This document shows, piece by piece, positions 5,435 to 41,731 of a stretch of 60,854 nucleotides of DNA. Origin of the DNA: Armatimonadota bacterium (GTDB lineage Bacteria; Armatimonadota; Fimbriimonadia; Fimbriimonadales; Fimbriimonadaceae); NCBI GenBank assembly GCA_029781035.1, contig JAKOXK010000003.1:1-60854 (forward strand), given 5' to 3'. The notes beneath the pieces were generated by a model. It was given only the letters and a program-made list of their open reading frames with translations. It ran no database searches and was not told where the DNA came from. A program made the position numbers and the translations under genes. Positions within the stretch are counted from its first letter, which is position 1. Each line of letters starts with the position of its first letter.

Positions 5435-6952
5435 TCACAGTTCGAATTTGATGCCTTGAGCCAGTGATGGTTTCTCACTGCCGAAGTAGGTCGTGCTGGT
5501 TTGTCGCCTCATATAGGCCCTCCAAGAATCGGAGCCGGACTCCCGTCCACCGCCCGTCTCCTTTTCGCCCCCGAACGCGCCGCCTATCTCGGCGCCACTT
5601 GTCCCTATGTTGACGTTGGCGATACCGCAGTCGCTGAACCTTTTGAACGCTTCGGCTTCTCGGACGTCGGTCGTCATGATCGCAGAACTCAGTCCTTGGG
5701 GAACGTCGTTATGGATCTCCAAGGCCTCTTCGAGACTGTCATAGGGAAGTACGTAAGTCAGCGGGGCGAACGTCTCGTCGTGGACAATCTCCGTCTGCCG
5801 ACGCATCTTGACGAGGGCGGGCTTGACATACCACCCACCACTCTCTGTCAGCGTGCGCGTCCCCCCGACGACCTCGATGGCGTCGCGACGTGCCTTGTCG
5901 AGGGCGGCCTGCATGTCGTCGAACGCCTGTTTGTTGATGAGCGGTCCGACCAGGGTGCCCTGAGCCAGCGGATCGCCGACTTTTGAGTCCCCAATCTGCA
6001 GATAGACCTTTTTCAAAGTCTCGAAGATCTGGTCGAAGTGGCTCCTGTGGGCGATGACCCGGCGCGTTGTCGTGCACCGTTGACCGGCAGTACCGACCGA
6101 TCCGAACAAGATAGAAGGAATGGCGACTCCCAGGTCCGCACTCGGCGTGACGATAATTGCGTTGTTGCCCCCCAGTTCCAGCAATGCCCTTCCGAACCGG
6201 GCTGCGATCTTCTGCCCCACGATCCGACCCATCCGGGTGGAACCGGTCGCACTGACGAGGGGCACGCGGTGGTCTTCGACCAAGACGTTCCCTTGTTCGT
6301 GCGTTCCGATGACAACTTGGCTCAGCCCCTTGGGTGCGTCAGCAAATCCCTCCGCGACCTCCTCGAAAAGGCTTTGGACTGCCAGTGCCGTCAAAGGAGT
6401 GCTGTGGCTGGGCTTCCACAGACACGGGTCGCCACAGACAAGTGCCAGTGCGGCGTTCCAGGACCAAACCGCGACGGGGAAGTTGAAGGCCGAGATGATG
6501 GCGACTGGCCCAAGTGGCAGCCAGTTCTCCTGCATCACGTGGTTCGGCCTTTCACTGGCGATCGTCAGGCCATAGAGCTGTCGGCTGAGACCGACGGCAA
6601 AGTCGCAGATGTCGATCATCTCTTGGACTTCGCCCCGTCCTTCCTCCAGGATCTTCCCGCACTCGATGGTCACGAGCCTGGCCAAAGCTTCTTTGTTCTG
6701 CCGAAGAGCCTCACCCAGACGCCGAACAAGCTCACCCCGTCGCGGGGCGGGGACTTCACGCCAGGATCGAAATGCGACCATGGCCCGATCGATTTTCTGC
6801 GTGACGCCAACGACTGTGTCGTTACGCAAAGTGGCGAGTTCAGAACCATCGATGGGGCTGGTAACGAGCAAGTCGGACCCTCGGTACTCGTCAAGGGCGG
6901 GGATCAATCGCCTCACATCGTCTTCGAAGCGAGTCTTTGGAGTCGTGCTCAT
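5435..6952 (-). CDS. ALDH7-type aldehyde dehydrogenase (piperideine-6-carboxylate / aminoadipate semialdehyde dehydrogenase-like)
   Basis: About 505 residues from the ATG at 6952. It is an NAD(P)-dependent aldehyde dehydrogenase: the catalytic Cys sits in GTAGQRCTTTRR, the general-base Glu in LLELGGNNAI, and the cofactor loop is SATGSTRMG. The C-terminal segment NIGTSGAEIGGAFGGEKET followed by GGGRESGSDSWR is characteristic of the antiquitin/ALDH7 group, which oxidises 2-aminoadipate 6-semialdehyde in lysine degradation. The substrate is inferred from the subfamily. A TACACT hexamer ends 7 bases before this ATG with no Shine-Dalgarno, suggesting a leaderless mRNA. A GTG 24 bases further up is the alternative start. 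Confidence 0.88.
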   Translation of the reverse strand: MSTTPKTRFEDDVRRLIPALDEYRGSDLLVTSPIDGSELATLRNDTVVGVTQKIDRAMVAFRSWREVPAPRRGELVRRLGEALRQNKEALARLVTIECGKILEEGRGEVQEMIDICDFAVGLSRQLYGLTIASERPNHVMQENWLPLGPVAIISAFNFPVAVWSWNAALALVCGDPCLWKPSHSTPLTALAVQSLFEEVAEGFADAPKGLSQVVIGTHEQGNVLVEDHRVPLVSATGSTRMGRIVGQKIAARFGRALLELGGNNAIIVTPSADLGVAIPSILFGSVGTAGQRCTTTRRVIAHRSHFDQIFETLKKVYLQIGDSKVGDPLAQGTLVGPLINKQAFDDMQAALDKARRDAIEVVGGTRTLTESGGWYVKPALVKMRRQTEIVHDETFAPLTYVLPYDSLEEALEIHNDVPQGLSSAIMTTDVREAEAFKRFSDCGIANVNIGTSGAEIGGAFGGEKETGGGRESGSDSWRAYMRRQTSTTYFGSEKPSLAQGIKFEL

Positions 6953-6959
6953 GGCTCGC

Positions 6960-6965
6960 AGTGTA
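6960..6965 (-). promoter_or_regulatory. -10 hexamer 7 bases before the aldehyde dehydrogenase start (leaderless candidate)
   Basis: TACACT on the minus strand fits TAnnnT and is separated from the ATG at 6952 by 7 bases. Transcription would begin at about the start codon itself. No Shine-Dalgarno is seen for that ATG. Five similar cases occur in this window. Confidence 0.4.
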
Positions 6966-7005
6966 TCCCTGTCCACTATGGGAGGTCAGGAGCAATCGGG
7001 CCGAG

Positions 7006-7100
7006 TGGCGGGAGCGTGTAGGAATCGAACCCACCCGGCCCCTTGTGAGGGCCACAACGGTTTTGAAGACCGCGGGGCACACCAGCACCCATGCGCTCCC
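7006..7100 (-). tRNA. selC: tRNA-Sec (anticodon UCA)
   Basis: Read on the minus strand this folds as a selenocysteine tRNA. The anticodon loop CTTCAAA (UCA at 7064-7066) sits on a 5-bp stem. There is an extended 6-bp D stem (GGGTGC/GTGCCC, with two GU pairs) around a 4-base loop, a long variable arm (GGCCC/GGGCC), and a T arm with loop TTCGATT. The acceptor is 7 bp plus an eighth C/A mismatch, where bacterial tRNA-Sec usually has 8 pairs. Discriminator G is at 7009, and the CCA end is encoded (7006-7008). The length of 95 bases including CCA is right for this class and too long for ordinary tRNAs. It reads UGA as selenocysteine with SelA, SelB and SelD, none of which is in the window. Confidence 0.95.
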
Positions 7101-7158
7101 AAGCAGTCGGAGTACTCTTCCATGTGTACCCGAGATCGGGTTCATTAGGGAAGTTTGA

Positions 7159-7584
7159 ATGGAAATCACGATCGATTGGAAAGGTGGCATGGAGCTGGCT
7201 GCCAGCGTTGGGTCGAAGACCGTCATGACTTTCGACGCCAAGCCTGAAGGTGGGGGCAAAGGGAACGGTCCGACACCGCTCGAGGCCTTCGTCAGCTCAC
7301 TGGGAGCCTGCACTGCCATGGACGTGCTCTCAATCCTTGCCAAGAAGAGGCAGCAAGTCACTAGATACCGTGTCGTGGTCACAGGCGAAAGAGCACCTGA
7401 GGGCGAATTCCCGAGGCCGTTCGTCCAGCTCAATGTCCAGCATATCCTCGCAGGCGAGGATCTGGACCCGGCCGCAGTAGCCAGGGCCGTGGAACTCAGC
7501 GACACGAAGTACTGCACCGTCTCGGCCACGCTGAAGGGCGGACCAGAGATCGTTTCGACGTGGGTGGTCGAGTCCGGCGACTAG
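7159..7584 (+). CDS. OsmC-family protein
   Basis: A 141-residue OsmC/Ohr-fold protein. AGGGAAG lies five bases before the ATG. The two family cysteines are present: one in SSLGACTAMDVL on the central helix and one in DTKYCTVSATL. These form the peroxide-reactive pair in OsmC and Ohr enzymes. The sequence is closer to the general YhfA/OsmC-like branch than to Ohr, so the role is probably thiol-based peroxide reduction, with the exact substrate unknown. It starts 58 bases right of selC and converges on the SLBB gene with 3 bases between the stops. Confidence 0.88.
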   Translation: MEITIDWKGGMELAASVGSKTVMTFDAKPEGGGKGNGPTPLEAFVSSLGACTAMDVLSILAKKRQQVTRYRVVVTGERAPEGEFPRPFVQLNVQHILAGEDLDPAAVARAVELSDTKYCTVSATLKGGPEIVSTWVVESGD

Positions 7585-41478: not shown

Positions 41479-41553
<75 letters not shown>

Positions 41554-41657: not shown

Positions 41658-41731
41658 GCGGGCGTAGCTTAATGGTAAAGCTCCAGCCTTCCAAGCTGAT
41701 CACGTGGGTTCGATTCCCATCGCCCGCTCCA
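41658..41731 (+). tRNA. tRNA-Gly (anticodon TCC)
   Basis: Acceptor GCGGGCG (41658-41664) pairs with CGCCCGC (41721-41727), then discriminator T and encoded CCA (41729-41731). The anticodon loop is CTTCCAA (anticodon TCC, reading GGA and GGG) on a stem whose outer pair is a C/A mismatch. The T arm is GTGGGTTCGATTCCCAT. It lies about 100 bases from the other Gly tRNA, on the opposite strand. Confidence 0.95.

Follow-up and report, generated by a model that had tools for sequence, protein, structure and literature searches.

A selenocysteine tRNA gene in a member of the Fimbriimonadaceae (Armatimonadota) and its probable role in decoding UGA

Selenocysteine (Sec), the 21st amino acid, is inserted by tRNA-Sec. 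A gene predicted to encode this tRNA (selC) lies on the stretch of DNA analyzed here (60,854 nucleotides, hereafter the window), part of a Fimbriimonadaceae (Armatimonadota) draft genome of 3.42 Mb in 98 contigs that is 96% complete. The locus raises linked questions: is this a functional selC, does its host read UGA as Sec, and what is to be made of a mismatch in the eighth pair of its acceptor stem? We conclude, with a probability of about 0.96, that it is a functional bacterial selC whose product would serve Sec insertion at UGA in SelD and in two TlpA/ResA-like proteins. The Sec system is known in kind and ordinary; as far as the literature searched goes, it is newly seen in this lineage. 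It would extend Sec use to the Armatimonadota, a phylum for which we found no description of such use in that literature. Annotation is affected as well: SelD and the two thioredoxin-like proteins appear truncated if TGA is taken as a stop.

The tRNA-Sec gene

ARAGORN calls the locus tRNA-SeC(tca), and the Rfam tRNA-Sec model RF01852 matches it at 7100-7010 over its full length (1-91/91) with 74.7 bits (E 1.7e-13), against a gathering score of 47 bits. Read from the sequence, the gene folds into a 7-bp acceptor stem (GGGAGCG/CGCTCCC) followed by an unpaired C8 and A66, a 5-bp T stem (GTGGG/CCTAC), a D stem of 6 bp (GGGTGC/GTGCCC) closing a loop of 4 nt, and a long variable arm; the discriminator is a G at 7009, followed by an encoded CCA at 7008-7006 (Table 1). 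The original prediction had described a minus-strand tRNA-Sec with a UCA anticodon, a 6-bp D stem, a long variable arm, and CCA, and each of these points holds; the covariance model gives it no poor score.

The anticodon (UCA), the 6-bp D stem and its 4-nt loop, the long variable arm, the discriminator G, and the encoded CCA are all as in bacterial tRNA-Sec of the Escherichia coli selC type (RF01852, 8+5), and acceptor and T stem likewise add up to 13 layers. The gene departs from that type at the eighth pair, which is Watson-Crick there, C.A here, and X.A in nearly all examined genes of the order. The 8-bp Watson-Crick acceptor stem of the canonical 8+5 form is absent: there are seven standard pairs and the C8.A66 mismatch. 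The missing pair marks a variant and is no ground for exclusion, for tRNA-Sec is taken to include forms that fall short of 8+5, among them unusual 7+5 (12-bp) bacterial types reported by Secmarker (PMC5330540). The present gene shares their seven standard acceptor pairs and 5-bp T stem, but the 7+5 types are short of a residue and mostly carry a bulge (PMC5330540), whereas in this gene both strands retain the eighth layer, as a mismatch.

Table 1. Features of the selC locus (window coordinates) and of the two TlpA/ResA-like genes elsewhere in the genome
Feature	Coordinates	Strand	Basis or location
selC, tRNA-Sec(UCA), 95 nt with encoded CCA	7006..7100	-	ARAGORN; Rfam RF01852, 74.7 bits
selC anticodon TCA	7064..7066	-	ARAGORN, anticodon position 35
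selC C8, 5' side of eighth acceptor pair, faces A at 7017, non-Watson-Crick	7093..7093	-	sequence; relatives
selC A66, 3' side of eighth acceptor pair	7017..7017	-	sequence
OsmC-family protein, 141 aa, divergent neighbor	7159..7584	+	PF02566, 70.5 bits
Aldehyde dehydrogenase (L-piperidine-6-carboxylate dehydrogenase family), downstream neighbor	5435..6976	-	NF050084, 741.7 bits vs cut-off 730
TlpA-like FWUGPC protein, 327-residue fragment ended by contig edge, ~180-aa N-terminal region	L183:1432-2412	-	contig C13
TlpA/ResA-like FWUGTC protein, 190 residues	L192:1300-1869	+	contig C76

Partner genes and in-frame TGA codons

All three partner genes are present in the genome, full-length and above curated cut-offs: selA (contig C82, 448 bits; PF03841 and a GDKLLGGPQ motif), selB (C10, 311 bits; the C-terminal SelB-specific winged helix PF09107, SelB-wing_3), and selD (C64, 336 bits). 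With selC (C54) they occupy four different contigs, which gives no hint of a selABC operon. By the general scheme, tRNA-Sec would be charged with serine by SerRS; SelA would convert the seryl-tRNA to Sec-tRNA, using selenophosphate made by SelD; and SelB would deliver Sec-tRNA to in-frame UGA codons followed on the 3' side by a SECIS hairpin. The UGA sites supported as probable targets are those of SelD (HCAG-U-ASK) and of the two TlpA/ResA-like proteins (FW-U-GPC and FW-U-GTC).

SelD itself is a candidate selenoprotein. Its gene holds a single in-frame TGA, codon 12, which falls at the catalytic site (MRLTQLVHCAG-U-ASKLG). Among 15 SelD relatives retrieved by name from the Armatimonadota, 14 conserve this codon and the remaining one has Cys. 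Relatives in named genomes are mainly from this phylum, many of them labelled Fimbriimonadaceae, with up to 69% identity. Compared with Sec-containing SelD (TIGR00476, UxxK), the protein shows no notable difference: its predicted Sec likewise occupies the N-terminal catalytic site and precedes xxK. It comes from a phylum unnamed in the selenoproteome literature consulted. In the Fimbriimonadaceae SelD of isolate Prado032 (L081:3001-3978), Cys replaces Sec at the catalytic position.

A SECIS-like hairpin (GAG-GUY-CUC with a GGUY apex) lies about 36 nt 3' of the selD TGA, and 84% of its cells are paired. It has three pairs and 12 cells changed on both sides, the covariation score is 0.263 against 0.073 in shuffles (0/500 as high), with every slid register lower, and z is -2.56; these bases are also under coding constraint, which alone predicts no compensatory changes.

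The genome has 20 AhpC/TSA-fold matches. In two of them an in-frame TGA occurs, each time precisely where WCxxC has its first Cys (Table 1). The TGA of the WUGPC protein is conserved in three relatives (G107, of the same genus and 63% identical, G121, and G086), and that of the WUGTC protein in seven genomes. The WUGTC orthologue of G074, a genome lacking both tRNA-Sec and selD, carries Cys (WCGPC). The FWUGTC gene has a 7-bp hairpin 3' of its TGA (z -2.83), and in G156 several stem positions differ, from GAGAGUC/GACUCUC to GAGCUUC/GAAGCUC, with pairing retained. The WUGPC gene has only a weak hairpin 3' of its TGA (z -1.27). Both proteins appear to fit known TlpA/Prx-like UxxC selenoprotein families (PMC13188914), sharing with the TlpA/ResA-like and Prx-like oxidoreductases (cd02966/PF00578) the thioredoxin fold and a predicted Sec where CxxC has its first Cys; they differ in matching no curated NCBIfam model at cut-off, and one has an extra N-terminal region. 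Two side observations concern these genes: relatives of the FWUGTC gene carry hairpins of differing architecture 3' of the same TGA, and annotation would split the FWUGPC gene into two broken ORFs.

Other searches returned no further selenoproteins. The original prediction had hinted at selenoproteins of the OsmC-like and formate-dehydrogenase types; neither hint held, as the genome's two OsmC-like genes and its five PF00384 molybdopterin oxidoreductases have no in-frame TGA, nor do its two CMD-family matches. A scan combining SECIS and open frame gave no candidate within the window, and a codon-bias scan for read-through TGAs (the window plus 51 kb of other stretches) yielded nothing of use, most of its hits being shadow frames. 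When the selD-type SECIS core was sought as a pattern 3' of TGA, 100 matches came up and the reversed control gave 98, so that there is no enrichment; 38 combined paired ends with an open frame, and among those fetched or in the window selD alone passed on stem length and frame. The selenoproteome listed here is a lower bound, because few families were searched.

Distribution of the trait and competing readings

Of the family's 85 genomes compared, 82 are concordant for tRNA-Sec and selD: 47 carry both and 35 neither, with one carrying tRNA-Sec alone and two selD alone (Fisher p = 2.6e-20, treating the genomes as independent, which overstates their independence since they are related). Two of the three discordant genomes are incomplete assemblies (G076, 74%; G105, 88%), and the third, G091, has a SelD without TGA. 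Thioredoxin-fold matches bearing TGA occur in 15 of the 48 genomes with tRNA-Sec and in one of the 37 without; that one is G105, with its partial selD. The family, so divided, is a natural setting in which to follow gain and loss of the Sec trait and exchange between Sec and Cys.

These distributions bear on the competing readings. That selC is a relic, a pseudogene tRNA that outlasted the Sec trait, would be in keeping with the mismatched eighth pair and with the patchiness of the trait in the family. A relic would not be expected to keep a full model score with arms and CCA intact, however, and the same type of mismatch recurs in 33 of the order's 35 distinct tRNA-Sec genes compared; intact selA, selB, and selD, together with in-frame TGAs conserved in selD and two further genes, refute this reading in practice, and we regard it as extremely improbable. 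Genome-wide reassignment of UGA, for example to Trp or Gly, would leave in-frame TGAs with no Sec meaning, and the few that exist could be taken in its favor. Yet they are confined to the sites of catalytic Cys, a relative that lacks the trait has Cys there, and none lies inside the five molybdopterin enzymes, the two OsmC and two CMD proteins, or 18 of the 20 AhpC/TSA matches; we reject reassignment as having next to no likelihood.

A tRNA that reads UGA and inserts another residue is also very unlikely. Such tRNAs have precedents in selC-like tRNA-Cys and in allo-tRNAs, whose acceptor and variable arms are long (PMC7609411), but the present gene scores as tRNA-Sec and has the 6-bp D stem, UCA anticodon, and discriminator G. 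The 6-bp D stem is read by SelA. With selA, selB, and selD alongside and a SECIS-like hairpin 3' of the selD UGA, identity as an allo-tRNA or tRNA-Cys was rejected. Decoding of UGA as Sec, the main inference of the original prediction, is upheld as very probable in this genome by the three partner genes, whose absence would have spoken against it, by three genes with in-frame TGA at catalytic Cys positions, and by co-occurrence across the family. Weighing the other way are the weak hairpin of the WUGPC gene, the spread of the sel genes over four contigs, and the want of a Watson-Crick eighth pair in the acceptor stem. The tRNA, its partner genes, the conserved catalytic-position TGAs, and the SECIS-like hairpins of selD and one TlpA-like gene are there in the sequence; from them we infer expression, charging, and actual insertion of Sec.

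The eighth acceptor pair and the neighboring genes

The C/A mismatch had been singled out as an oddity for a bacterial tRNA-Sec. The mismatch is real, but it is not peculiar to the gene. Among 35 distinct tRNA-Sec genes from Fimbriimonadales, position 8:66 is G.A in 14, A.A in 14, C.A in five, and G-C in two; a non-Watson-Crick X.A (C.A, A.A, or G.A) thus occupies it in 33 of 35, and U-A never occurs among them. In a small sample of tRNA-Sec from other classes, the pair is Watson-Crick in five of nine. Given its prevalence in the order, the mismatch is, on the genes compared, a feature common to the lineage rather than damage.

Shared descent would explain much of the 8:66 pattern, and a selected mismatch and a merely tolerated one would both fit the sequences. 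Tentatively, and with some doubt, we raise the possibility that the Fimbriimonadales fixed X8.A66 at the junction of acceptor and T stem as a lineage-specific tRNA-Sec variant, to whose distorted eighth layer SelB and SelA would have adapted. The 8-bp stem has been described as the main SelB determinant (PMC7609411), and a conserved mismatch in the eighth layer bears on how strict the need of SelB for that stem is.

The OsmC-family protein adjacent to selC has, as originally described, Cys at both conserved positions and no in-frame TGA; it is not a selenoprotein, and it falls below the cut-off of NF041052. The divergent pair of selC and the OsmC-family gene (7006-7584) is kept in seven Fimbriimonadaceae selC loci, and a selenium link for it is conjectural. 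The downstream aldehyde dehydrogenase has no known selenium link. Elsewhere in the window, two tRNA-Gly genes, CCC at 41479-41553 (minus strand) and TCC at 41658-41731 (plus strand), are separated by about 100 bp.
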